A program made the translations under genes and the position numbers. Of a stretch of 64,000 nucleotides of DNA, positions 48,845-62,038 are shown in pieces (position 1 is the first letter of the stretch; each line of letters begins with the position of its first letter). The stretch is taken from contig NZ_ML675584.1 in the NCBI RefSeq assembly GCF_007826885.1, positions 1 to 64,000 on the forward strand, in the 5' to 3' direction. Under the pieces are notes generated by a model. It did not search any database and had not been told where the DNA came from. It worked only from the letters and a program-made list of their open reading frames with translations. This DNA is from Candidatus Nitrosocosmicus arcticus. Its GTDB lineage: Archaea > Thermoproteota > Nitrososphaeria > Nitrososphaerales > Nitrososphaeraceae.

Positions 48845-49594
48845 ATGACTATGCTAGAAAATAGAATTGAGAATTGTGTATTTCCTGTCAATTACTTTTA
48901 TGATCTTGATAACTTTACTTGGATAAAATCAATAGATGAACCGAGTGATTCCCAGGATGGCATGAAGCAGGTCATTGTAGGTATAACTCCAATATATTCG
49001 TACATAGCTGGCAGGATACTCAAATTTAAGATAAAACCTGCTGGCGTGGATATTGTTAGAAATAAAAGCCTGGGTACTATTGAGAGTTTAAAGCACTTTG
49101 GAATAATTCGTTCTCCAGTTTCCGGGCAGATTTTGGAAATAAATCCTGAAATTATTCATAATCCTAAGGTTGTTAATGACTCCCCCTTTGATAATGGCTG
49201 GATTGCAAAGATCAAAACTAAAGATAATCTAGAAAGCCTTGAATCGATAAAAACGATCAATGAGTGTAAGTATGAACTAGACTTTCAAATTAAGAAATTC
49301 AATGTGAAGTGTTTTAAATCATTTCCTGATTTTGAGATGTTTGAGTTAGGAACAGAATGTTCTGCCACTTTAGCAAAATTGGATGAATTCATGATGAAAA
49401 ATATGCGAGTCGGAGATGTCATAAGACTAGTTTCTGATGATCCTACTGCTGATCTTGAGTTATTGCGTTGGGCTGAACAAAATAAACAAGAAATCCTTGA
49501 AATTATGCAAGAGAAAAACTCTGTACAGTCTTCATCATCAAACTCTAGTAATAATTATTTATTCAATATTATTATCGAAAAAACAAAAAATTAG
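48845..49594 (+). CDS. GcvH-like lipoyl domain fused to a TusA-like domain
   Basis: The 249-residue protein starts with a GcvH-type lipoyl domain: GTIESLKHFGIIRSPVSG places the lipoyl-lysine at Lys83, and NDSPFDNGWIAKIK is the GcvH C-terminal signature. The second domain (about residues 155-222) looks like TusA/SirA: ECSATLAKLDEFMMKNMRVG, then DVIRLVSDDPTADLELLRWA. The TusA CPxP cysteine is present as Cys172 in CSAT. Lipoate-binding proteins and TusA work together in sulfur oxidation (sHdr) pathways, so a sulfur-carrier role is plausible, though not proven. The neighbour on the other strand is a rhodanese, 14 bp away and convergent. GcvP and GcvT are absent here. Confidence 0.8.
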   Translation: MTMLENRIENCVFPVNYFYDLDNFTWIKSIDEPSDSQDGMKQVIVGITPIYSYIAGRILKFKIKPAGVDIVRNKSLGTIESLKHFGIIRSPVSGQILEINPEIIHNPKVVNDSPFDNGWIAKIKTKDNLESLESIKTINECKYELDFQIKKFNVKCFKSFPDFEMFELGTECSATLAKLDEFMMKNMRVGDVIRLVSDDPTADLELLRWAEQNKQEILEIMQEKNSVQSSSSNSSNNYLFNIIIEKTKN

Positions 49595-49608
49595 AATGGT
49601 GAAAGGAT

Positions 49609-50457
49609 CTATTTCTCAATTGGATTTCCTATCATGTTACCCCATTCTGTCCACGATCCATCATAGTTCTTAACATCCGGGTATCCCAAGAGATATTTTA
49701 GGACAAACCAAGTGTGAGACGATCTCTCTCCAATCCTGCAATAGGATATTACTTCTTTTTCTGGGCGAACCCCATTTTCATTATAAAGTTTATTCAAATC
49801 TTCGGCCGATTTGAACGTTCCATCCTCATTAACTGCTTTACCCCATGGAATATTGATGGCTGCAGGAATGTGGCCTCCCCTTTGAGCATGCTCAGTAGGA
49901 TATTCAGCAGGCGCAGTCACTTCTCCAGTAAATTCTGCTGGAGACCTGACATCAACTAAAATGCTTTGTCTATTTTTAAGCGATTCTGACACATGATTGA
50001 GGTAGGTTCTTATTTTCTCATCGGGGCTTGATGCTTTGAAATGGCCTGTTGAATAAGTTGGAATTGTTTTATCGATAGACCTGTCTTCTTCAAGCCATTT
50101 TTTTCTGCCTCCATTCATTATCTTCACATCCTCGTAGCCATAATATTTGAATACCCAAAAAGCAAAGGCCGCAAACCAATTATTGAAATCTCCGTAAAGT
50201 ATCAGAGTCGTATCCTCGTTTATTCCTGATTTTTTGAGTAATTCTTCACACGATTCCTTTGAGATGATGTTTCTGTTCAAAGGATCATTAATGTCTTTCT
50301 TCCAATCAAATAACACTGAGCCGGGAATATGTCCTAAGTGGTAATTTGCTTTTGGATCATAGTCTACTTCTGCAATTCTTACATTAGGATCTTTTAAGTG
50401 ATCTTCAGTCCAACTTGTGTCAACTAAGACCTCAGGGTGGGCATATCTATTCGACAT
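49609..50457 (-). CDS. sseA: Thiosulfate/3-mercaptopyruvate sulfurtransferase (rhodanese)
   Basis: The 282-residue protein has two rhodanese domains. The first is inactive-like and carries ILYGDFNNWFAAFAFWVFKY, with the catalytic position replaced by Asp. The second carries the active loop YCRIGERSSHTWF near residue 240, with the sulfur-accepting cysteine. The VDTSWTEDHL N-terminus and the SWTEWGN C-terminus are family signatures. It transfers sulfane sulfur to acceptors; the convergent GcvH-TusA fusion next to it is a possible partner. Confidence 0.94.
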   Translation of the reverse strand: MSNRYAHPEVLVDTSWTEDHLKDPNVRIAEVDYDPKANYHLGHIPGSVLFDWKKDINDPLNRNIISKESCEELLKKSGINEDTTLILYGDFNNWFAAFAFWVFKYYGYEDVKIMNGGRKKWLEEDRSIDKTIPTYSTGHFKASSPDEKIRTYLNHVSESLKNRQSILVDVRSPAEFTGEVTAPAEYPTEHAQRGGHIPAAINIPWGKAVNEDGTFKSAEDLNKLYNENGVRPEKEVISYCRIGERSSHTWFVLKYLLGYPDVKNYDGSWTEWGNMIGNPIEK

Positions 50458-50580
50458 TTATTAAATAACCTTAACCCATATTCAGTATTTAAATAATAAA
50501 AAAATTACCAGCATGTACCGTCATTATTATTTTTTCCAAACATCAAAAACGATTTTAATGATGCCGCAACTATTAATTTT

Positions 50581-50931
50581 ATGACCATATATACTGATTC
50601 ATTAACCAACCTTTCAAGATATAAGAATGATTTCTACAGGATAGCTGTATCCTCTACGCTGCCGTTTGAACTACAACACAAAATGGATGCTTGGTTTTAT
50701 GAATTATCACCATCAAAGAGTTTGACTGAGAAGTTTGAACGCGAGGAACTGAGTATTAATGATTACACTGCGTTGTATCAGAAAGAAATGAACAGCAGTA
50801 AAGCTATCTCTAATATAAGGTGGATAAAAGATTATTCGAGGAAAAACGACGTTGTGTTACTCTGTTATGAACCGGAAAATCTCAACAACTGTCACCGCCA
50901 TATTCTGAAGCAGATCATTGAACAATCATAG
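50581..50931 (+). CDS. DUF488 family protein
   Basis: The 116-residue protein has the family end VVLLCYEPENLNNCHRHILK (cysteines about 12 residues apart with the CHRHIL motif) and an N-terminal TIYTDSLTNLSRYKNDF. The function of DUF488 is unknown. It stands between the rhodanese and dodecin genes on the plus strand. Confidence 0.75.
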   Translation: MTIYTDSLTNLSRYKNDFYRIAVSSTLPFELQHKMDAWFYELSPSKSLTEKFEREELSINDYTALYQKEMNSSKAISNIRWIKDYSRKNDVVLLCYEPENLNNCHRHILKQIIEQS

Positions 50932-51082
50932 TTTGATACAACCAACGTAATCGATTAATGGTTAAAGTGAGTTTTGTTAATCATAATCATCATTGTTGAA
51001 AAAATCTCAACAATATCTATCATGAATTTGTTTTTTGTATGCTTTTGATTATATTTTTATGTAACTAAAATTAAAATCAATA

Positions 51083-51289
51083 ATGGTCTACAAATATATA
51101 GAAATAGTGGGAACGTCACCAACCGGAATAAATGAAGCCGTCAACAACGCTTTTAAGGAAGCGTCTAAGACCATCAAGAATATCCAATGGGGTGAGATGG
51201 GAAGAGTGACTTTTAGGTTGGATGGAAATCAGCAAATTGAATATCAGGTAGAAGTTAGAATAGGATTTAAAATAGAAAGGGAGGATTAG
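51083..51289 (+). CDS. Dodecin
   Basis: This 68-residue protein forms 12-mers that bind flavins. The start MVYKYIEIVGTSPTGINEAV, the NIQWGEMGRVTFRLDG segment (with the flavin-stacking Trp) and IEYQVEVRIGFKIE are characteristic. It probably stores FMN/riboflavin or protects it from light. It is monocistronic. Confidence 0.93.
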   Translation: MVYKYIEIVGTSPTGINEAVNNAFKEASKTIKNIQWGEMGRVTFRLDGNQQIEYQVEVRIGFKIERED

Positions 51290-51341
51290 AATGAATTAGG
51301 AATTTTCTTACTAGAAGACTGGTGGTGTAAAATTAGTGAAT

Positions 51342-51716
51342 CTACGCAGGTTCACTCAACCTGCTTTGAACAATCTCCAAAAAACTATCTTTATTAATAG
51401 GTTTTCTGATTATGCAGTTAAAACTTAAATCTGAATACGACTTTATGATAGATTGATAATATTCCTCAAATGCAGTAGCTAGGCAAATTCGAATCTTACT
51501 ATCCATTATTCTAATCCTACTAGCCAACTCAAAACCGTTTATTCTAGGCATTCGTATGTCTGTTATGAGCAGATCATAAATTCCAGGCTCAAATTCCTCT
51601 AATAGGGAGTTAGGATCATTGTAAATACTAACTTGGTGTCCCTCATCTTCCAAACAAATTTTAAAGAATAATGCTGTTCCTACATCATCATCTATTACTA
51701 TGATATTATTTACCAT
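51342..51716 (-). CDS. Response regulator receiver-only protein
   Basis: The 124-residue single receiver domain has acidic residues Asp9-Asp10, phosphorylation site Asp53 in LLITDIRMPRINGFE, Thr81 in LATAF and Lys105 in RKPI. There is no output domain, so it would act by protein contact. ATG 51716 is preferred over TTG 51746 because a TATA-like AAAATATTTTAAT lies about 35-40 nt upstream of 51716. The ATP-grasp gene lies 85 bp upstream on the same strand and the histidine kinase is divergent from that, so the three are likely one unit. Confidence 0.85.
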   Translation of the reverse strand: MVNNIIVIDDDVGTALFFKICLEDEGHQVSIYNDPNSLLEEFEPGIYDLLITDIRMPRINGFELASRIRIMDSKIRICLATAFEEYYQSIIKSYSDLSFNCIIRKPINKDSFLEIVQSRLSEPA

Positions 51717-51800
51717 TATAGAATATTTTATTAATTGCGATACCAATTAAAATATTTTTACATTTGTATGCCTCAATCGGATTAAATCTTGGTTATATTC

Positions 51801-51860
51801 TCATTTTCTAAAAGGATTAAGTATGTCTCTAAGGTTAAAAAAAATACCTTCATGAGTCAT
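51801..51860 (-). CDS. 19-residue ORF overlapping the ATP-grasp stop
   Basis: The TGA of the ATP-grasp gene overlaps the ATG of this ORF in an ATGA arrangement, the usual sign of translational coupling. It encodes THEGIFFNLRDILNPFRK after the Met. It could be a coupled micropeptide, a graspetide-like precursor, or the displaced C-terminus of the ATP-grasp protein after a frameshift. The sequence alone does not decide this. Confidence 0.3.
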   Translation of the reverse strand: MTHEGIFFNLRDILNPFRK

Positions 51861-52963
51861 GTAATTCCCTTTTTATTCAATAGTCCATCCACAAAGTCAA
51901 ACATTGATTTTGTTATTGGTAAATTAGTGTGCTTTTCAATCCAATTCCAGTCACCTATTGGATTAATTTCAAGAAAAAATAAATCTCCATTTTTACCTTG
52001 AACAAAATCTATGCTTGAAACAAGTAATCCTAATTTTCTATTTAGATTAATACATAGTTTTTCCATTTTTTTGTCGATATTAATTTCAGAAAATATTAAC
52101 TCTTTTTCCTTTATTTTGTGTAAATCAGAAAATTTGCGCTTTTCTTGGTTCGTTGAAATTCTACATGAAAATGTTTTCTCATTTACTACAGTTACTCGGA
52201 TTTCCGAATCATTCTCTATTTTCTTTTGAAAAATTACTGGTGCGTAAGTTAACTCGTCGAATTTTGACAAATGACTGGTTTCAACGATGTTGGTTAGGAA
52301 CCTGTACGATTTTTGTTTGAGATAAATCTCATGATGATGAAGTACTTTGACAATTGTCGATTTACGAAACCTCTTAAAAAACTTTTTCGCTGCCTCCATT
52401 TCATTGGTTATCAATGTCTCTGGAATGCTGAAACCAATCTTTTGCGCCAGCAACAACTGATTCAATCTATTTTCAGCGTCAAAAGTTCTTTGCGGATTAT
52501 TTATCCATAGAGCATCTAGAGCTATTGGTAGACAGTTAAAAGCTTGATACCACTGTTGAGCGAAATACATTTGATTTACCCCTGAATAATAGTTCAAAAA
52601 TTTCAGATCAAAATATCTAAATAATACTATTTTGATTTCATCAGGAATTACTTTTCTATTTCCGATATGTAGTATGGAGTCATTGACTTTTCCAATTTTG
52701 AATTCAAAATGAAAATTTAGAGGTATATCCTCTTCCGTTATCTTTACATAATCGATTCCATTTTTCAGGAATTGAATGCCTAGGAGATCCGATTCTATGT
52801 CCATTTTCTTAGTTAATATCAATACTTTTGGATTAATACTTGAGTTTCCTTTTTTGGAAATATTTAGTCGTTCAATTAATTCTAAGGGATTAGTATTATT
52901 CATGAGGATTCTTTTATAGTTTAATTTCTCTAGAAAATTAAAAACAAAAGGCTGCCTAGACAC
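51857..52963 (-). CDS. ATP-grasp ligase of the MvdD/graspetide-maturase type
   Basis: The 368-residue protein has the signature of the microviridin/graspetide ATP-grasp ligases: NNPQRTFDAENRLNQLLLAQ followed by IGFSIPETLITNE near residue 170, and near residue 320 FFLEINPIGDWNWIEKHTNL then PI. These enzymes make side-chain ester or amide bonds in small peptides. No second maturase or transporter is adjacent. The GTG at 52963 is supported by a TATA box near 52987. It contains N-terminal QPFVFNFLEKLN, which recalls the PFFARFLE motif of graspetide leader peptides. The start could instead be ATG 52903. Confidence 0.8.
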   Translation of the reverse strand: MSRQPFVFNFLEKLNYKRILMNNTNPLELIERLNISKKGNSSINPKVLILTKKMDIESDLLGIQFLKNGIDYVKITEEDIPLNFHFEFKIGKVNDSILHIGNRKVIPDEIKIVLFRYFDLKFLNYYSGVNQMYFAQQWYQAFNCLPIALDALWINNPQRTFDAENRLNQLLLAQKIGFSIPETLITNEMEAAKKFFKRFRKSTIVKVLHHHEIYLKQKSYRFLTNIVETSHLSKFDELTYAPVIFQKKIENDSEIRVTVVNEKTFSCRISTNQEKRKFSDLHKIKEKELIFSEINIDKKMEKLCINLNRKLGLLVSSIDFVQGKNGDLFFLEINPIGDWNWIEKHTNLPITKSMFDFVDGLLNKKGIT

Positions 52964-53062
52964 AATTACGTTTATTTCAACAATATAAAAATTTTATCTT
53001 CTTTTTTTGAATAATAAAGATAATGAGATAAGTTTAATTAATTATTGAACTAATAAAGTTAC

Positions 53063-54511
53063 ATAACATTCATCAGTGATTCTAATTCCCAATCAAGAAA
53101 ACCTGAAACCGAAGCTGTTTGTTACCTGTGTGGAAAACATATAAAAAATCATGATGATTTTTTCATTGAGGAAATTAGTAAAGGAGATGAAAGGTTTCAT
53201 CACAAGCATTGTTATACCTTTTATAATAGACTCGTCTCTGTTTACGGGAAAGATTTTTCGGAGCTAGGTCTGGATCAAATCAATTGGGGAGCCAGATCGG
53301 GCAATCTTGTTCAATTGTCTTTGTTTGATATCAAAAGAACAAAATTCAATAGTTCAGAGGTTATTTCTGACTTTTCGCACTTTAAGCGGAGACTACTAGA
53401 TGAAGTTTATGAGACTAAGGACGAATTACAGCTAGTATGTTCTAGTACTGGTATATTTGAGCAGTTTATTGAGATTTTGGAAGGATTGTTCTTACACATT
53501 AGACAAACCCAAACATCTGCACCAAAGATTCGATTATTGTTTCCTAAAAGCAAAAAGGTAAATTCATTCTTGGAAAAAACCAACATCTCTGATCTCCCTT
53601 CGGTTGAGATCCAGTATATTCACGAAGATGAGTTTCAATATTTCATTGCTGGAGTAGACAAATCGATATCATTGTTTTCTGAACCGAGGAGAAATTTTGA
53701 AAGAGGATTCAATGATTCTTTTTTCAATGTGATTTCTTTAAAGGATTCTGTAATTTGGCACAATTCAGCTATTTTTGAAAGTCTTTGGAAGCAGTCTATA
53801 CTAGAAAATAAAGTAAAGGATCTTTCTCGTGAACTGAATAGGAATAATGTTTCAAATCATAACTTTGTCCGGATCCTTGCTCATGAATTAAAAAACCCGA
53901 TTCAACCAATTCTTGGTTTTTCAGATATGATTCAAAACAATAAGAGACTAGATTCTGATCAAAAAAACGAATTATTAAAAATTATTTCTAGAAATGCCAG
54001 AAAATTGGATATCATGACAAATAATATCCTTGATTATGCCCGAATGGAAAATAATATTTTTAATCTGAACCTTGAAATTTTTGATATCGTCCAGGTCATC
54101 GAGGAATTATTAGGTGATTATACTCTTCAAGTAAACAAAAAGAACATCAAGTTAGATTTGGATACTTTATCTAAAAAAATTATGATAAAGGCTGACAAGA
54201 TACGAATAATTGAAGTGATAGACAATTTGTTAAGTAACTCAATAAAGTTTACTGAAAGGGGGCAAATCGTCATATCTGTTCGAGAAACTGACCAATACAT
54301 TGTAGTCAAAATTGCGGATACCGGGTGCGGCATAGATGAAAAAAATCATAAAAAATTATTTTCCAAATTCTACACTACTGATAAACTTGGAACAGGACTG
54401 GGACTATACATTTCAAGAATAATAATAGAAAAGCATTTGGGCAGAATTGAAGGCAGAACTAACACGGATGGGATCGGGAGTAGTTTTACGATTAAATTAC
54501 CAGTAAAATAG
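53063..54511 (+). CDS. Histidine kinase with N-terminal zinc-type domain, non-standard start
   Basis: From TTG 53315 the ORF encodes 398 residues with a ~165-residue sensory region, a dimerisation domain with H-box VRILAHELKNPIQP (His190 in this numbering), and an HATPase with NLLSNSIKF, DTGCGID and GTGLGLYISR. The same frame is open upstream to 53057 and encodes VCYLCGKHIKNHDDFFIEEI, then FHHKHCYTFYNRLVSVYGKDF, a Cys/His domain also seen in a small gene at 57299. No ATG, GTG or TTG is available there. ATA at 53063 or ATC at 53072 lie at the expected leaderless distance from the TATA-like TTTAATTAAT at 53033-53042. It is divergent from the ATP-grasp gene. Confidence 0.87.
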   Translation: MTFISDSNSQSRKPETEAVCYLCGKHIKNHDDFFIEEISKGDERFHHKHCYTFYNRLVSVYGKDFSELGLDQINWGARSGNLVQLSLFDIKRTKFNSSEVISDFSHFKRRLLDEVYETKDELQLVCSSTGIFEQFIEILEGLFLHIRQTQTSAPKIRLLFPKSKKVNSFLEKTNISDLPSVEIQYIHEDEFQYFIAGVDKSISLFSEPRRNFERGFNDSFFNVISLKDSVIWHNSAIFESLWKQSILENKVKDLSRELNRNNVSNHNFVRILAHELKNPIQPILGFSDMIQNNKRLDSDQKNELLKIISRNARKLDIMTNNILDYARMENNIFNLNLEIFDIVQVIEELLGDYTLQVNKKNIKLDLDTLSKKIMIKADKIRIIEVIDNLLSNSIKFTERGQIVISVRETDQYIVVKIADTGCGIDEKNHKKLFSKFYTTDKLGTGLGLYISRIIIEKHLGRIEGRTNTDGIGSSFTIKLPVK

Positions 54512-54617
54512 TTCGTTGCCCTAATTGTAAATTTATTATTTGCCATACCTATAACTTTAACTTTAACTTTAACTATATTCAAAAAGTTTTTTAAATGAAA
54601 CTTTTAAAATACATTGA

Positions 54618-55472
54618 TTGGGAAAATGTATATCCTTCCATTCTTACAAAGGCGGTACTGGCAAAACGACATTAGCAGCCAATTTTTCTTATCTCTTGGC
54701 TTCAAGGGGTTACAATGTATATTTACTTGATCTTGATTTTTACGCTCCCAGTCTTTATACCTATTTTAATCACGAACCAGAGTTTTGGATAAATGATTAT
54801 TTAAGAAATAAAGCTGATTTAGATGATATCCTGATCGACTCCAGTTCTCTAATCGACTTCAAATTCGAGGGGAAATTATCACTAGGGTTTTCTAAAGGGG
54901 GAAAAGAAGATATATATCAACTCGAAGGTAGTCTGCTCAATGATAAAGAACAACAGGTTCGTCAGTTCAGAAATTTTATTGCCATGCGTGAAGACCTTTT
55001 AGTCAATAAAGAAGCAGATTTTATAGTAATGGATACGAGTCCTGGCATACGATATTGGTCAATCAATTCTATAGTGATTTCAGATATGGTCTTGTTAACG
55101 TTAAAAATGGGTGATTTAGATTTAAGAGGAACAATTAAAATGATTAAAGAGATTTACGCGTCTTTAATCGAACATGGCTCGGTTTGCAAATTGCTGTTGA
55201 ATAGGGTTGCCGGATATTGTGTGCCTCATGCAGGAATTGACCCCATTAATAAAAATGCCTTTAATGGTAACTCGGCCTTTAGGGATAAGATAGACCTTGA
55301 ATTAGAAAAACTCGTAAATGGATTAGTTAAAGTAGATACGTTGTTAGAGATTCCATGCTACTGCGATATTCAATTCAAAGAAAAGGAATTTTTGACCACA
55401 AATGAATTTCCAGAGCATCCATTTACGACAAAGATAATAGATCTGGTTGATCAAGTGGAAAATTTAGACTAG
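54618..55472 (+). CDS. ParA/MinD-family ATPase
   Basis: The 284-residue protein has the deviant Walker A KGGTGKTT at residues 11-18 and LLDLDFYAPSLYTYF near residue 35, followed by VMDTSPGIRYWSINS. It belongs to the SIMIBI ParA/MinD group, which positions cargo or regulates assembly. The TTG at 54618 is the start; a TATA-like AACTTTTAAAATAC lies just upstream. No parB is present. It ends 3 bp from the convergent membrane protein gene, so a pair is possible. Confidence 0.87.
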   Translation: MGKCISFHSYKGGTGKTTLAANFSYLLASRGYNVYLLDLDFYAPSLYTYFNHEPEFWINDYLRNKADLDDILIDSSSLIDFKFEGKLSLGFSKGGKEDIYQLEGSLLNDKEQQVRQFRNFIAMREDLLVNKEADFIVMDTSPGIRYWSINSIVISDMVLLTLKMGDLDLRGTIKMIKEIYASLIEHGSVCKLLLNRVAGYCVPHAGIDPINKNAFNGNSAFRDKIDLELEKLVNGLVKVDTLLEIPCYCDIQFKEKEFLTTNEFPEHPFTTKIIDLVDQVENLD

Positions 55473-55475
55473 ATT

Positions 55476-56837
55476 TTATTTTCTGCTGCCTTTGTTGAAA
55501 ATACTAATTGCTTCGTCCAAGTAACTTCTTAGATCTTCCTCTGTTTCCGTGGTTTCTGATTCATTACTCTGATGAATTTCTTTAGAGTATTTCTTAGTCA
55601 TTGCTAAAACCTTTTCCTTCATATTATCGATCATTTGAGATTGAGCCAGGTCTCCCATAATTTCTAATTCTTTGTATGCTGAATTCTTAATGTATTTTCT
55701 AACACGAATGTCGTTTGAAATGGCAATAATTGAATAATATATCCCTACATAGAATAATAGAGAGGCAAAAGGGAGAAAAATTATACTTGGGATACCAAAA
55801 GGCGGGAAACTTGCGCCCACTATTGTTGCATTAGCACAGATAAAAAATAAGATAATACCGTAGGAAGCCATTATTAAATATGTTTCAACGTTTGGTGATA
55901 TTTTTAGCAAATTAGCCACCGACTTAAATCCTACGCCGTAAAGTATTCCACATAATGCAATAGAAAACATGACAATTAAGATCTGAAGCGCAAATACAAT
56001 ACTCTCATCAAAATTCGTGTTTTCTGTTAATGAATAAAGTTCGTCATAGTGGTAAATGAATACAAAGAAGAATAATACTAAAGGAAGAGTAATCAACGTG
56101 AAGAACCTAATTTTTCCAATCTTCTTGATTTGATAGTGTAATAGAAAGTAATTACATAGCCAAAATAACGAGAAATATATCATCAGTGTATATGATTGAA
56201 TATTTACTATGCTTTCTTTAAACATACAATATAGAGAATCATCGTCACATTCAAAATTAAAGACAACTGGAGTTGTAATATCTATTTGAAAAGGCTTTTC
56301 AGAAAGCAAAGTTGCAAATAAGAAAATGGATACCAAATTATTTACAAAGACAAAAAAGATGGTTAAACCAAATAAAAATGAGAACTTATTCTTATTCTCC
56401 TTATACCAAGAGAACAATTTGAAACTAACAAATAGACTCATCACTATACTAGAGCTATAACTAACAACCATTATCGTAGTCAAACCTATTGTATAATATT
56501 TATTCCCAAAAATGATGTCAACCATTAAAAATGCTGACAAGGAATATAATATTATCTGCATTACTCGAAATAGCATTTTATACCGACTAAAAATTGATTT
56601 CTTTTTGTCTACTATTTTCCAAATGCTGCTCATTACTACAAGGCTTCCAAATAGACTTAGAAACATAAGAAATACAAATAAAGCGCCGCCAGCCATTGTT
56701 TGAATAAAATCATTTGCTACGTCTGTTATTGAGCTCACATACAAATCTACAAATAGGAGCAGAATCAAAACCCATATTGATATCACTGCTATTTTTGAAT
56801 TCTTATTTAAGGAACTAATTGTAGATAGAGTCTTCAA
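55476..56837 (-). CDS. Polytopic membrane protein, unknown
   Basis: The 453-residue protein has about nine to ten hydrophobic segments covering residues 15-390, then a cytosolic Glu/Lys-rich C-terminal tail (about 395-453) with low complexity. A loop near residue 200 contains a CDDDSLYC pair of cysteines outside the membrane. The hydrophobic core resembles signalling membrane domains, but there is no kinase or transporter motif. I do not recognise the family. It is 3 bp from the ParA-like gene, tail to tail. Confidence 0.75.
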   Translation of the reverse strand: MKTLSTISSLNKNSKIAVISIWVLILLLFVDLYVSSITDVANDFIQTMAGGALFVFLMFLSLFGSLVVMSSIWKIVDKKKSIFSRYKMLFRVMQIILYSLSAFLMVDIIFGNKYYTIGLTTIMVVSYSSSIVMSLFVSFKLFSWYKENKNKFSFLFGLTIFFVFVNNLVSIFLFATLLSEKPFQIDITTPVVFNFECDDDSLYCMFKESIVNIQSYTLMIYFSLFWLCNYFLLHYQIKKIGKIRFFTLITLPLVLFFFVFIYHYDELYSLTENTNFDESIVFALQILIVMFSIALCGILYGVGFKSVANLLKISPNVETYLIMASYGIILFFICANATIVGASFPPFGIPSIIFLPFASLLFYVGIYYSIIAISNDIRVRKYIKNSAYKELEIMGDLAQSQMIDNMKEKVLAMTKKYSKEIHQSNESETTETEEDLRSYLDEAISIFNKGSRK

Positions 56838-57298
56838 TAAATAGCATACTTTGATTCTCCTATTTGAATTTTTAATTAAATGACTATGCTATTATTGCCA
56901 TATTAATAACTGTATGTTACAACAAAGGTATACCAAATATTGGTAGTTTCTACGCTTTATTTATTGGATTTTTTAATCCCTAACTATTCATTTGATGCTT
57001 TTTTATCGATCGAGTGAACCATTTTCACCAATGCCTTATAATCATTTAATAAAGATTCCTAATGACTAGCAAGGTTATAATTAAAAACATTCATGATATC
57101 TTTAGCTTGTTCGGTAAAAGTTTATTCGTAATAAGTAACAAAGATTATGTTCCTTATTGTTAAATTTGGTAAAAATGACATGTGATTTTATTATAGTTAC
57201 CACGTTATATTTTAAAAACGCAATAAAAATACATACTAGATCAACGAGTGAATCCGTAATCATGGATAAGGATTCCACATCACCGCAAAGCCGGATAA
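56838..57298. other. Gene-free stretch
   Basis: About 460 AT-rich bases with no supported gene or structure. The first ~40 bases carry the promoter of the minus-strand membrane protein. Confidence 0.4.
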
Positions 57299-57499
57299 TC
57301 AGCAGGAATTCAGGATATCTATATATGATGTACCATATATTCCTAATAACCTTTTATAGATTATATAACAAAAGCCCCTTTCAATCTGGGGTTGTAGCAT
57401 CTCAGATGGATTTGCAAAAACACCTCTTTCATGAATTCTCCCACATATAATGCACTTCCTGTCTTTCAATTCAAATGAATCACTCAAACGTATATTCAT
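57299..57499 (-). CDS. Small zinc-type domain protein, possibly a fragment
   Basis: The 66-residue product contains CIICGRIHERGVFANPSE, then FCYIIYKRLLGIYG. This resembles the N-terminal Cys/His domain of the histidine kinase at 53 kb (CYLCGK ... HCYTFYNRLVSVYG). It therefore looks like a stand-alone copy or the left-over N-terminus of another sensor kinase. Start is ATG 57499 (a TTG lies 9 nt upstream). Confidence 0.5.
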   Translation of the reverse strand: MNIRLSDSFELKDRKCIICGRIHERGVFANPSEMLQPQIERGFCYIIYKRLLGIYGTSYIDILNSC

Positions 57500-57572
57500 G
57501 GGGTACAATCCTAATTACAAATTACCTTATCATGAGAGCAAATGCATTCCTAGTCAAAGTTTAATGAACGAT

Positions 57573-57743
57573 TATCTTCCTTTCAATGGGAAAAAACCGA
57601 AGCCAGATTTGCTATATCTACTTGCAAACTTGGTAATTTCCTCGATTTGCTCTTGAGTAAGTCCACTTGCTTGGATTTCATATGGTTTATTATCTATTTG
57701 AGCTTCTAAAATATTAGCAATTTCTTTTGTAAATTTATTCATA
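57573..57743 (-). CDS. Small protein, 56 residues
   Basis: The ATG-started ORF encodes a soluble helical peptide: MNKFTKEIANILEAQIDNKP, then LTQEQIEEITKFASRYSK, ending GFGFFPLKGR. The composition is protein-like (amphipathic helices). It is not recognised. It lies on the same strand as the zinc-domain ORF at 57299, with the palindrome cluster about 50 bp upstream. Confidence 0.6.
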
Positions 57744-57793
57744 CACTATATACGCAGACATAAGAAATATGAGTTATCATCATAGTAACACTG

Positions 57794-57879
57794 TTCAATG
57801 AGTATTGAATGATCCGAACAGAGTTTGATCTTTCAATACTCATTGAAAGGATTCAAACTAGTTTGTATAAACTAGTTTG
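57794..57879. promoter_or_regulatory. Cluster of perfect palindromes (candidate operators)
   Basis: Two copies of the dyad TTCAAT-N4-ATTGAA lie at 57794-57809 and 57832-57847. They are reverse complements of one another including the spacer, so they also form a 16-bp stem with a 22-nt loop. Next come two copies of the 10-bp palindrome AAACTAGTTT at 57855-57864 and 57869-57878, which together form an 11-bp stem. The cluster begins 51 bp upstream of the minus-strand 56-residue gene. Such repeated dyads are typical of multi-site operators. Confidence 0.55.
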
Positions 57880-58529
57880 TTATTTATCCGCAACACATTT
57901 ACAGTAACAACAAATTATTTAAACTTTTAAGAATATGATTTGGCCGTATAATAATATTCATGAATCAGACAATTCCGTATTTTACTATGTTACCATTAAT
58001 CTATTCATCATTAGTTCATATTGTAATATCATTTCAAGTCCTCAATCAGTTTTCTCCCTTGAAAAATAATAATAGTATGTCACATGGATTATCATACCCG
58101 CATTCCACTTAGAATGTCAGGTTTTCTTCCGCATGTATTTAATAAGAGAACGGTCTACTGTTGGGTACTAATATATATTCAAGATCAATTAGAATATTCT
58201 TTACATGGTTAAATTTTTTAAATAATTTAATATTGTTATAATCGCGTTTGTAGTCTTCAATATATTTCTGTGTTTGGGGAAAAATTTAATAATGCACCGG
58301 ATAAACTATGCAAATGTATTACTCAAAAAGTAAACGAATAGAAGTACAACTTTAGCAGCAAGTTTGCCCATTAATTACCAACTATTGTAGCAATATATGG
58401 ATATATGAATTCTAAGGTTTATCCTAAATTGATATGAGATTTATACCATAGCGGAGATATTCTTTATTTGTCCTATAAATTGACTATAATGGTTAAATAA
58501 ATGATAGAGGTATTATAAATAGACATTCT
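57880..58529. other. Gene-free stretch
   Basis: About 650 bases without a supported ORF, between the palindrome cluster and the TPR gene. The end near 58440-58520 carries the TPR promoter region. Confidence 0.4.
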
Positions 58530-60992
58530 TTGGATGGAAATTATAATATTAACAAAACCCCTAGAGATACTAATAGGGAAAATAAAACTGCTAATCCGGA
58601 TACGGATGATCATGTGGCGGACATCGATAATACCAACGATGACATCGCTGAAATTTCTATAGAGGATAACTATCTTGAAAATCTAGATCCTTCCTTACGA
58701 AATTCTATCGATGATATTACCACCATTATAAATGCCAAGTTAAGAAACTCCGATATCTCTACAAAGCACAAAGCATCAATAGAAACCCAAATAGAGGGAT
58801 TGGCTAATTTAATTAAATTAATACCTCGCAAGGCTAACAATGCTATTACCACAGATGACTCTGCTCTTTCTAACAATGCTATTACCACAGATGACTCTGC
58901 TCTTTCTAACAATGCTATTACCACAGATGACTCTGCTCTTTCTAACAATGCTATTACCACAGATGACTCTGCTCTTTCTAACAATGCTATTACCACAGAT
59001 GACTCTGCTCTTTCTAACAATGATTATCAAAGAACCGTCACTTCTCTTGATCAAAACATCGAGATAAACCCACAATATGCAGATGCCTACAACAACAAAG
59101 GCTTGTCTTTGTATTATCTAGGGGATTACCAAGAAGCCATAGCCTGCTACGATAAGGCCATCGAGATAAACCCAGAGTATGATCTTGCATTTTACAACAA
59201 AGGTATAGTGTTGTCTGTTACTGGAAATAACCAAGAAGCCATAGCCTGCTACGATAAGGCCATCGAGATAAACCCACAATATGCAGATGCCTACAACAAC
59301 AAAGGCTTGTCTTTGTATTATCTAGGGGATAACCAAGAAGCCATAGCCTGCTACGATAAGGCCATCGAGATAAACCCACAATATGCAGATGCCTACAACA
59401 ACAAAGGCCTGTCATTGTATTACATTGGGAGTCAGGATGCCATAGCCTGCTACGATAAGGCCATCGAGATAAACCCAGAGTATGATCTTGCATTTTACAA
59501 CAAAGGTATAGTGTTGTCTGTTACTGGAAATAACCAAGAAGCCATAGCCTGCTACGATAAGGCCATCGAGATAAACCCACAATATGCAGATGCCTACAAC
59601 AACAAAGGCTTGTCTTTGTATTATCTAGGGGATAACCAAGAAGCCATAGCCTGCTACGATAAGGCCATCGAGATAAACCCACAATATGCAGATGCCTACA
59701 ACAACAAAGGCCTGTCATTGTATTACATTGGGAGTCAGGATGCCATAGCCTGCTACGATAAGGCCATCGAGATAAACCCAGAGTATGATCTTGCATTTTA
59801 CAACAAAGGTATAGTGTTGTCTGTTACTGGAAATAACCAAGAAGCCATAGCCTGCTACGATAAGGCCATCGAGATAAACCCACAATATGCAGATGCCTAC
59901 AACAACAAAGGCTTGTCTTTGTATTATCTAGGGGATAACCAAGAAGCCATAGCCTGCTACGATAAGGCCATCGAGATAAACCCACAATATGCAGATGCCT
60001 ACAACAACAAAGGCCTGTCATTGTATTACATTGGGAGTCAGGATGCCATAGCCTGCTACGATAAGGCCATCGAGATAAACCCAGAGTATGATCTTGCATT
60101 TTACAACAAAGGTATAGTGTTGTCTGTTACTGGAAATAACCAAGAAGCCATAGCCTGCTACGATAAGGCCATCGAGATAAACCCACAATATGCAGATGCC
60201 TACAACAACAAAGGCTTGTCTTTGTATTATCTAGGGGATTACCAAGAAGCCATAGCCTGCTACGATAAGGCCTTCGAGATAAACCCAGAGTATGCGGATA
60301 CATTCTATAATAAAGGAATGGCCCTGTCGGCCATATCCAAATTTGCAGAAGCCATTACATCTTTTGATAAGGCCATCGAGATAAATCCCTATTATGCAGA
60401 TGCATTCTATAATAAAGGAATGGCCCTGTCGGCCATATCCAAATTTGCAGAAGCCATTACATCTTTTGATAAGGCCATCGAGATAAATCCCTATTATGCA
60501 GATGCATTCTATAATAAAGGAATGGCCCTGTCGGCCATATCCAAATTTGCAGAAGCCATCAGTTCATACGAAAAAACGCTAGAAATTGATTCTGACAACG
60601 TCAAAGCATTAAATGGAAAATCATGGATACTCGCAAATCAATTCCCTACACGCATTAACGAAGCACTGGATACAATAAAGCGGGCATTGGGGATTGATCC
60701 GACCGATATAGATATTCTGTATACATATGGTTTCATAATGGAGCACATGGGGTCATACAAAGAATCAGTCTCAATTTACAACCATATATTAAAACAGGAT
60801 CCCTTAATACCTGAAGTTTGGTATAGGTGCTTTGTATCTAAAACAAAATCTGATGATGACGAATTACCTGATTCGAGATTTTATTTGAATCAAGCAATTG
60901 ATCTAAACCCCGATTATGCAGTTATGTCAAAGACAGACGGACAAAAAAAAATGGCTGGGAATGAAACGCACTACTCTATTCCCATTATGTAA
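58530..60992 (+). CDS. Large TPR-repeat protein
   Basis: The 820-residue protein starts with TTG and a charged N-terminal region, then five exact copies of a 12-residue unit NNAITTDDSALS (residues ~103-162), then about 17 TPR units of 34 (or 33) residues, such as EAIACYDKAIEINPQYADAY. The TPR block is built of a ~303-bp (101-residue) unit repeated four times almost identically, followed by more diverged TPRs. There is no signal peptide or membrane helix. It is presumably a cytosolic scaffold or adaptor. It could bind partners through the superhelix. Confidence 0.85.
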   Translation: MDGNYNINKTPRDTNRENKTANPDTDDHVADIDNTNDDIAEISIEDNYLENLDPSLRNSIDDITTIINAKLRNSDISTKHKASIETQIEGLANLIKLIPRKANNAITTDDSALSNNAITTDDSALSNNAITTDDSALSNNAITTDDSALSNNAITTDDSALSNNDYQRTVTSLDQNIEINPQYADAYNNKGLSLYYLGDYQEAIACYDKAIEINPEYDLAFYNKGIVLSVTGNNQEAIACYDKAIEINPQYADAYNNKGLSLYYLGDNQEAIACYDKAIEINPQYADAYNNKGLSLYYIGSQDAIACYDKAIEINPEYDLAFYNKGIVLSVTGNNQEAIACYDKAIEINPQYADAYNNKGLSLYYLGDNQEAIACYDKAIEINPQYADAYNNKGLSLYYIGSQDAIACYDKAIEINPEYDLAFYNKGIVLSVTGNNQEAIACYDKAIEINPQYADAYNNKGLSLYYLGDNQEAIACYDKAIEINPQYADAYNNKGLSLYYIGSQDAIACYDKAIEINPEYDLAFYNKGIVLSVTGNNQEAIACYDKAIEINPQYADAYNNKGLSLYYLGDYQEAIACYDKAFEINPEYADTFYNKGMALSAISKFAEAITSFDKAIEINPYYADAFYNKGMALSAISKFAEAITSFDKAIEINPYYADAFYNKGMALSAISKFAEAISSYEKTLEIDSDNVKALNGKSWILANQFPTRINEALDTIKRALGIDPTDIDILYTYGFIMEHMGSYKESVSIYNHILKQDPLIPEVWYRCFVSKTKSDDDELPDSRFYLNQAIDLNPDYAVMSKTDGQKKMAGNETHYSIPIM
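58836..59015 (+). repeat. Five exact tandem 36-bp repeats
   Basis: AACAATGCTATTACCACAGA begins each 36-bp unit; five adjacent identical copies span 58836-59015. They encode NNAITTDDSALS in frame. The identity of all five at DNA level suggests recent slippage or gene conversion. Confidence 0.95.
59050..60290 (+). repeat. Tandem ~303-bp TPR repeats, near-identical
   Basis: The segment starting CTGGAAATAACCAAGAAGCC recurs at 59222, 59525, 59828 and 60131, exactly 303 bp apart, with almost no differences. Each unit codes for three TPRs (34+34+33 residues). The identity at third codon positions points to recent expansion. Confidence 0.95.
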
Positions 60993-61001
60993 TCTTGTTG
61001 C

Positions 61002-61031
61002 GGAAAATCACTTTCAGAATGATGATTTTCC
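61002..61031 (+). terminator. Hairpin after the TPR gene
   Basis: GGAAAATCA (61002-61010) is the exact reverse complement of TGATTTTCC (61023-61031), with a 12-nt loop, 10 bp after the TPR stop. It may end transcription or protect the mRNA end. Confidence 0.45.
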
Positions 61032-61352
61032 CTACACTAATAGTATTCCATGCCTGAATTAAAGAAATCTTGTTAGCCTGTATATACTAAAAATACTGGA
61101 AAATAAGGATTGTATTTTACTATCAAATAATTAAAGTGGCATTTTTTAATTGCCTTCGATGTAATTTTAAAAACCAAAATAAATCGTTTCCATGAAAAGT
61201 ATTTGCTAAGGTATTCTGCGACTTTATGTGTTATTTAAAACACACATATTTTATAACATCGTGGCTAGACATCTAATTCTATGCTTCAAAAACTTGAGTG
61301 ATAAGAACAAATTTTAATAACGTGAAACGTATTTGATAGTAATTGAGTATTA

Positions 61353-61751
61353 TTGGATTTTGCTAATGAGGATTTCGCAAATATTCACTGCAAACACATA
61401 AGGGAATTGGATCCGCTAATCAGATTTGTAGGCATAGCAAGTGGGATGGGTACATTGGTGGCAACTTCCTATCGAGAACAATTGAATGCACTGATGAGCG
61501 ACGATGAGACAAGACTCTACGCGATGCAAGCAGTATTTCGAGCTGAACTTCGTGAGGATTTTCAGAAGAATTTAGGTACTTTAAATTATTCTGTGGGCAA
61601 GTATGACAAACTAATACGTGCGACAATTCCATTAGATAGTGTTAACGAAAGTAAATATTATCTTTTAATCTCATTTGATATCGAGGCAAATTCAATATTC
61701 ATTATTGAAAAGAAAATTCTCGAATACATTAAAGTACTACCACGGGGGTAA
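61353..61751 (+). CDS. Hypothetical protein, roadblock-like
   Basis: The 132-residue soluble protein (TTG start) reads like a small sensor domain: LDPLIRFVGIASGMGTLVAT, RLYAMQAVFRAELREDF and SKYYLLISFDIEANSIFIIE. The alternation of beta strands and helices resembles roadblock/LC7 or the thaumarchaeal DUF6659 family, but I am not certain. No partner gene is adjacent. Confidence 0.6.
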   Translation: MDFANEDFANIHCKHIRELDPLIRFVGIASGMGTLVATSYREQLNALMSDDETRLYAMQAVFRAELREDFQKNLGTLNYSVGKYDKLIRATIPLDSVNESKYYLLISFDIEANSIFIIEKKILEYIKVLPRG

Positions 61752-61906
61752 TTTATTCTACAAAAAGTCTGCCAACAGTGCTTCCTGATTTGAAAAGTGG
61801 GTTTATCTTTTCACAATGAAATAAATCTAATCTAAGTTGTAATTATTCGATTATTATATATCTAAAATTACCAATTGTTATAAAGGTTGGTGTGGTTATT
61901 ATATGC

Positions 61907-62038
61907 ATGAGACAAAAATTTTCAGCGGGAACTAAATGTGAGTGCATGTGTCACGGGAAAGCGGGTATTATAGAATATTGTGGTTATTGTTCTTCTTCGC
62001 ATCGTAGAATGAATACGAGTCCAAGACCCAGAAGGTAG
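61907..62038 (+). CDS. Small cysteine-rich protein, 43 residues
   Basis: The ATG-started ORF encodes a basic peptide with CECMCHGKAGIIEYCGYC near residues 11-28, five cysteines plus a histidine. It could bind one zinc. It is too short to place in a family. A second cysteine-rich small protein in this window (32043) has a similar CxC/CxxC composition. Confidence 0.5.
   Translation: MRQKFSAGTKCECMCHGKAGIIEYCGYCSSSHRRMNTSPRPRR

Follow-up and report, generated by a model that had tools for sequence, protein, structure and literature searches.

Graspetides have, to our knowledge, been studied almost only in bacteria. The ligase encoded at the Nitrosocosmicus locus described here has its ATP-grasp fold, active-site residues and ExR motif in common with the microviridin ligases MdnB/MdnC (MvdC/MvdD) and with AMdnB, CdnC, PruB and PsnB, but it adds a leader-like extension of 44 residues and scores below the curated cut-offs, and no leader-bearing precursor, protease or transporter was recognised at its locus. 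Its best-scoring family, TIGR04187, is that of the TgmA/TgmB (SAV_5884-type) systems and of two archaeal loci, L164 and L165. In these, a precursor lies directly 5' of the ligase and its leader has a P-hydrophobic motif (PWVLRF for L162 TgmA, PFLWIF for L164 and PFLLRF for L165), whereas Nitrosocosmicus has none. The SagB-linked ligases of Macrococcus and Ligilactobacillus, which are similar to 'branch 6', the SagB-associated group in Makarova et al. 2022, form a sister group; they too have an N-terminal extension (one starts KPFLLDL) and likewise no recognised leader-bearing precursor, but their partner is a SagB-type dehydrogenase, in place of the two-component, ParA-like and membrane genes of Nitrosocosmicus. 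The precursors of this SagB-associated branch 6 have been described as being without the Phh motif (Makarova et al., PMC8939145). In the engineered ligases LP-MvdC and LP-MvdD, the leader is covalently attached at the N-terminus, like the leader-like segment of Nitrosocosmicus (PMC9826346), although these were made in the laboratory by fusion through a 30-residue linker, while the Nitrosocosmicus segment is natural and a putative leader by its sequence.

The window analysed was a stretch of 64,000 nucleotides, part of the 2.64 Mb genome of Candidatus Nitrosocosmicus arcticus, which belongs to a group of ammonia-oxidising archaea from soil. A first-pass annotation had joined a response regulator, an ATP-grasp ligase and a divergent histidine kinase at 51342-54511 into one locus. 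All three open reading frames were recovered there, both of the MvdD-like motifs quoted for the ligase were found in its translation, and the linkage of the three genes proved to be conserved across the genus. The conserved block is larger, however, and reaches ~57742, beyond 54511, when the same locus is compared across ten Nitrosocosmicus species. It comprises seven genes, for the response regulator, the ligase, the histidine kinase, a ParA-like ATPase, a membrane protein, and proteins of 69 and 56 aa, with the following features:

51342..51713, minus strand: response regulator, a single receiver domain (PF00072, 1.7e-17), 3' of the ligase and on the same strand; the start is the Met kept in relatives
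51857..52963, minus strand: ATP-grasp peptide ligase of 368 aa, assigned to the graspetide clade by profiles, PDB fold matches and tree
52832..52963, minus strand: residues 1-44 of the ligase, an N-terminal extension and candidate built-in leader; lies beyond the family model and is conserved in 10/10 orthologs
52931..52951, minus strand: PFVFNFL motif at ligase residues 5-11, similar to PFFARFL / Phhx(1,2)h of the microviridin leader (definition: PMC8939145)
53084..54511 (start approximate), plus strand: soluble histidine kinase with a zinc-finger-like N-terminus (HisKA 2.7e-13, HATPase_c 1.7e-24), divergent from the ligase
54618..55472, plus strand: ParA/MinD-like ATPase with KGGTGKTT (PF13614 8.6e-18, NF047398 4.3e-16), on the strand of the histidine kinase
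55476..56837, minus strand: multi-spanning membrane protein (~9 hydrophobic segments), no Pfam match
57299..57508, minus strand: 69-aa zinc-finger-like protein with a CxxCG...C..Y..YG pattern as in the histidine kinase N-terminus (alignment), in 8 carriers
57572..57742, minus strand: 56-aa protein, candidate substrate, with 8 orthologs, in carriers only, and no family match
57575..57595, minus strand: C-terminal FFPLKGR of the 56-aa protein, a conserved tail that 53-aa paralogs do not have

Gene order is fixed: a dodecin gene, the response regulator and ligase on one strand, the histidine kinase and ParA-like ATPase on the other and, 3' of the ATPase and convergent with it, the genes of the membrane protein and the 69-aa and 56-aa proteins, with a TPR gene beyond. 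The divergent ligase and histidine kinase genes are separated by ~120 bp, and the 56-aa gene is 4.6 kb away from the ligase in a separate transcription unit. Rfam returned no RNA matches within window positions 49000-62000, and small ORFs of at least 15 aa between the block genes were only weak stretches, overlapping just 5' of the 56-aa and TPR genes.

Because of its profile score, fold and tree position, the ligase is placed by descent in the graspetide-ligase clade, closer to it than to RimK/LysX. TIGR04187 (ATP-grasp ribosomal peptide maturase) was the best model (3.8e-51, 174 bits), and MvdC (1.1e-48) and MvdD (4.1e-36) also matched well ahead of rimK_fam (6.5e-16, 58 bits) and the Pfam RimK-like ATP-grasp model (1.2e-8). 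In this search with graspetide models, which had been suggested earlier, all of the curated cut-offs (TIGR04184/04185/04187) were missed, at 174/350, 166/425 and 125/475 bits; the TIGR04187 cut-off of 350 was also missed by two archaeal ligases that do have leader-bearing precursors (263 and 217 bits). When an AlphaFold model of the ligase (mean pLDDT 77) was compared with the PDB using Foldseek, the 32 best matches were all graspetide macrocyclases, before ArgX or RimK, and included AMdnB, PruB, MdnC, CdnC, MdnB and PsnB (Foldseek E 1e-24 to 1e-16). Maximum-likelihood tree reconstruction placed the Nitrosocosmicus ligases as sister to the SagB-linked ligases of Macrococcus and Ligilactobacillus (support 98/98), apart from an outgroup of ArgX/LysX/RimK-like archaeal sequences (100/100). 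Residues K206, E254, R256, D319, E332 and N334, presumably the ATP/Mg-binding and substrate residues, as in ATP-grasp enzymes generally, are conserved in 10/10 orthologs, and the E/R pair (ExR motif) and the E and N align with MdnB.

The match to the family model starts at ligase residue 47, leaving residues 1-44 as an extra segment. In all ten orthologs it reads MxxxPF(V/M)FNFLE, containing a PFxFNFLE motif, and P5, F8, N9, F10, P26, L29 and N34 are invariant. Leaders of graspetide precursors contain PFFARFL or, more generally, a Phhx(1,2)h motif (PMC8939145), the archaeal precursors carry the similar motifs given above, the Ligilactobacillus SagB-linked ligase starts MEKPFLLDL, which is also Phh-like, and artificial fusion of a leader to the ligase N-terminus produces a constitutively active enzyme (PMC9826346). 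Taken together, these correspondences suggest that the extension may be a leader built into the ligase, which seems a reasonable reading. A leader that was moved C-terminal to the core also remained functional (PMC13003496). The strict leader-like motif occurs by chance in ~2% of protein N-termini (3/165 other proteins of these genomes, first 45 residues). The extension matched nothing above chance in NCBIfam and Pfam, and AlphaFold confidence for it, docking included, was low in two runs.

The 56-aa ORF is, from its pattern of sequence change, a real gene, being under purifying selection (dN/dS ~0.19 in close pairs). The C-terminus of its product reads (F/P)(F/Y)PLK, followed by exactly two residues, in 8/8 orthologs, and PLK is invariant. 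Paralogs elsewhere in some carrier genomes have the N-terminal part in common with it but are missing the tail, so the tail is specific to the ligase locus. Reading the PLK tail as a graspetide leader motif was considered and rejected, as it does not match the published pattern. The conserved small ORF whose lack in relatives would, by the first-pass annotation, have refuted the graspetide reading thus exists, but the Phhx(1,2)h leader motif is absent from six of the eight orthologs, the remaining two having a loose form only, and there is no conserved core of T/S/K donor and D/E acceptor, the only invariant candidate side chains being K3, E7 and K54. Neither the 56-aa nor the 69-aa protein matched anything above chance in NCBIfam and Pfam. 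The 56-aa protein is the best candidate for a substrate, but no leader-and-core precursor was found, and the block offers no second candidate of at least 15 aa. As had been noted, no second maturase and no recognised protease or exporter family is present, although the block does include the multi-spanning membrane protein, which has no family match. Leader proteases and export proteins are common in graspetide clusters without being universal. The graspetide interpretation thus held for the ligase, in its clade and intact residues, but a graspetide biosynthesis cluster as such is not supported.

The response regulator consists of the receiver domain alone (~123 aa) and is under very strong purifying selection (pN/pS 0.08). 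It has no DNA-binding output domain, so transcriptional control, including a two-component switch acting on the ligase, is unsupported, and the earlier proposal of regulation by the two-component genes stays a hypothesis. The histidine kinase has no hydrophobic segment, and its N-terminus, with CxxC...HHxxC, resembles the 69-aa protein. For this pair, a cytoplasmic signal and an output by protein contact appear more likely. At its N-terminus the kinase extends beyond the original listing, with in-frame coding from ~53084. At window positions 53040-53130, the protein sequence of the kinase finger is conserved between this species and the two nearest to it, and in the same three there is no in-frame ATG, GTG or TTG between the upstream stop and the finger; the missing standard start codon implies a non-canonical start, perhaps a leaderless one. 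In a species without the block (G014, L092:5697-7629), the gene after a paralog of the ParA-like ATPase is RecA/KaiC-like, and its C-terminal part has CxxC...H like the kinase N-terminus, a hint that this ATPase family and the CxxC...H finger are recurring partners. A relative of the membrane protein with 28% identity lies directly 5' of the ligase in another genus (G035). Another genus of the family (G347, L095:3158-5739) encodes a different ligase of graspetide type, ~1 kb from a response-regulator-like ORF.

The explanation we tentatively prefer, with somewhat less than even confidence, is an island of seven genes for signalling and peptide modification in one Nitrosocosmicus clade. The histidine kinase would sense a cytoplasmic signal and phosphorylate the response regulator, which would then act through protein contact, since it has no output domain. 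The ligase would activate a carboxylate as an acyl phosphate and join it to an amine or hydroxyl, its target most likely being the 56-aa protein, with its PLK tail, or another partner from the block. The PFxFNFLE segment of the ligase would replace the leader of normal graspetide precursors, and the substrate would consequently need no leader of its own. The more specific proposal, of a natural leader-in-cis graspetide ligase in an archaeal phosphorelay that cross-links or tags a small signalling protein at its PLK tail, with no secreted peptide, is unlikely in its entirety. If true, these ideas would extend graspetide chemistry to archaeal signalling, and a natural ligase with its own leader would account for the absence of a recognisable precursor in some ligase groups.

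Alternatively, this could be an ordinary graspetide system with a leader-bearing precursor encoded elsewhere, the two-component genes being regulatory neighbours. The clade of the ligase would fit, as would the canonical precursor-ligase pairs in other archaea of the phylum, and precursors can be distant from the ligase or escape detection (Makarova et al., PMC8939145). Among the small ORFs of the carriers, however, none shares the leader-like segment of the ligase (best non-ligase E 0.03, in a search that is blind to precursors with an unrelated leader), and the block offers no further conserved small ORF and no known protease, exporter or second maturase, so that we consider such a system improbable.

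There is a similarly small chance that the enzyme is a RimK/LysX/CofF-like amino-acid ligase acting on a protein C-terminus or a cofactor, with only a distant likeness to graspetide ligases. Its score is above the Pfam RimK cut-off (35.2 vs 21) and below every curated graspetide cut-off, and the PLK tail, which holds its exact position at the C-terminus of all eight 56-aa orthologs, could be the site of addition. Against this stand the threefold difference between the TIGR04187 and rimK_fam bit scores, the lead of graspetide macrocyclases over ArgX and RimK in the fold comparison, and the fully supported split from the ArgX/LysX/RimK-like outgroup in the tree.

The signalling and peptide-modification island, as we prefer to read it, is present in 10/15 Nitrosocosmicus species and its order is constant, though some assemblies cut it short. 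Orthologs of the ligase, response regulator, ATPase, histidine kinase and 56-aa protein all occur in G000, G002, G003, G005, G007, G009, G011 and G013, and none of them in G001, G004, G008, G010 and G014. The incomplete blocks of the other two are due to contig ends: in G006 the 56-aa gene is missing where the contig stops, and in G012 the histidine kinase falls in a gap between two contigs. Identity among carrier orthologs is 85-95% for the response regulator, 54-88% for the ligase and 65-89% for the ATPase. Orthologs of the response regulator and histidine kinase were found in carriers only, as were those of the ATPase at an identity of at least 65%. Dodecin and TPR genes remain neighbours, within a few kb, in G001 and G008, with the entire block missing between them. 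The carriers form a single clade in a five-gene concatenated tree of ten of the species, so the distribution of the block probably goes back to one gain or one loss, and the shared presence of its genes does not amount to many independent events. Co-presence supports the block as a unit, and an arrangement kept across the genus is no chance juxtaposition. More widely, ligase relatives at E < 1e-8 were rare among 400 genomes sampled from the class, occurring only in Nitrosocosmicus, two genomes of another genus in the family, and two of another family. In Bacilli, relatives were very rare (2/399 genomes, query genome included), and the viral contigs searched had none. A passive neighbourhood of unrelated genes co-inherited in one clade is in keeping with that single event, with the conserved gene order further out from the block and with the 23 receiver-domain matches in this genome, which make such neighbours common, but it is doubtful, given block edges that match the syntenic flanks in two non-carriers without block remnants, a gene order that every carrier retains within the limits of its assembly, at ligase identities that fall to 54%, while some have lost the flanking DUF488 gene, the closely spaced divergent ligase and kinase, and the membrane-protein relative directly 5' of the ligase in the other genus.

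The combination of a complete kinase-receiver-ATPase-membrane-ligase block, an absent leader-bearing precursor and a leader-like ligase N-terminus is unusual, and no paper joining Nitrosocosmicus with an ATP-grasp enzyme was found in the open literature. The initial claim of novelty in archaea nevertheless has to be narrowed. OmpR-type regulators and histidine-kinase-like ATPases have been reported near bacterial graspetide ligases (Makarova et al., PMC8939145), so there is precedent for a regulator beside such a ligase. Carter et al. 2026 (PMC13097080) describe a graspetide group, Group 36, that is confined to 'Thermoprotea' and has a chromosome-segregation-like partner; archaeal graspetides have therefore been predicted before. 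This group might be related to the Nitrosocosmicus locus via the ParA-like ATPase, but 'Thermoprotea' corresponds to the class Thermoprotei in NCBI taxonomy. Canonical archaeal graspetide clusters were also found in two other lineages of the phylum, at L164:3686-5519 (G453) and L165:3623-5597 (G459), each with a leader-bearing small ORF, a TIGR04187-type ligase and then a membrane protein. The membrane protein of G459 is weakly similar to a protein that follows a multi-core precursor and ligase in Sinorhizobium, and in L164 a neighbouring gene looks, by sequence, like the archaeal release factor aRF1.

Several other observations were made in and around these loci. In a genome of another family within the same taxonomic order (G310, L097:3609-6868), a tyrosinase-like gene, which has tandem repeats at its C-terminal end, precedes an ORF of 222 aa and an ATP-grasp ligase gene. 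In block-free species other genes lie between TPR and dodecin (L130:1270-5134, L131:927-4225), among them paired similar ORFs resembling PRC-barrel/YsnF-type stress proteins. A single protein at window positions 48845-49594 combines a glycine-cleavage H-like domain with a TusA-like segment after it (the segment scoring below its cut-off), and its gene adjoins a rhodanese-like gene. In the TPR protein (window 58530-60992), NNAITTDDSALS occurs five times in tandem and the TPR repeats are long and nearly identical; the length of the protein differs strongly between species.
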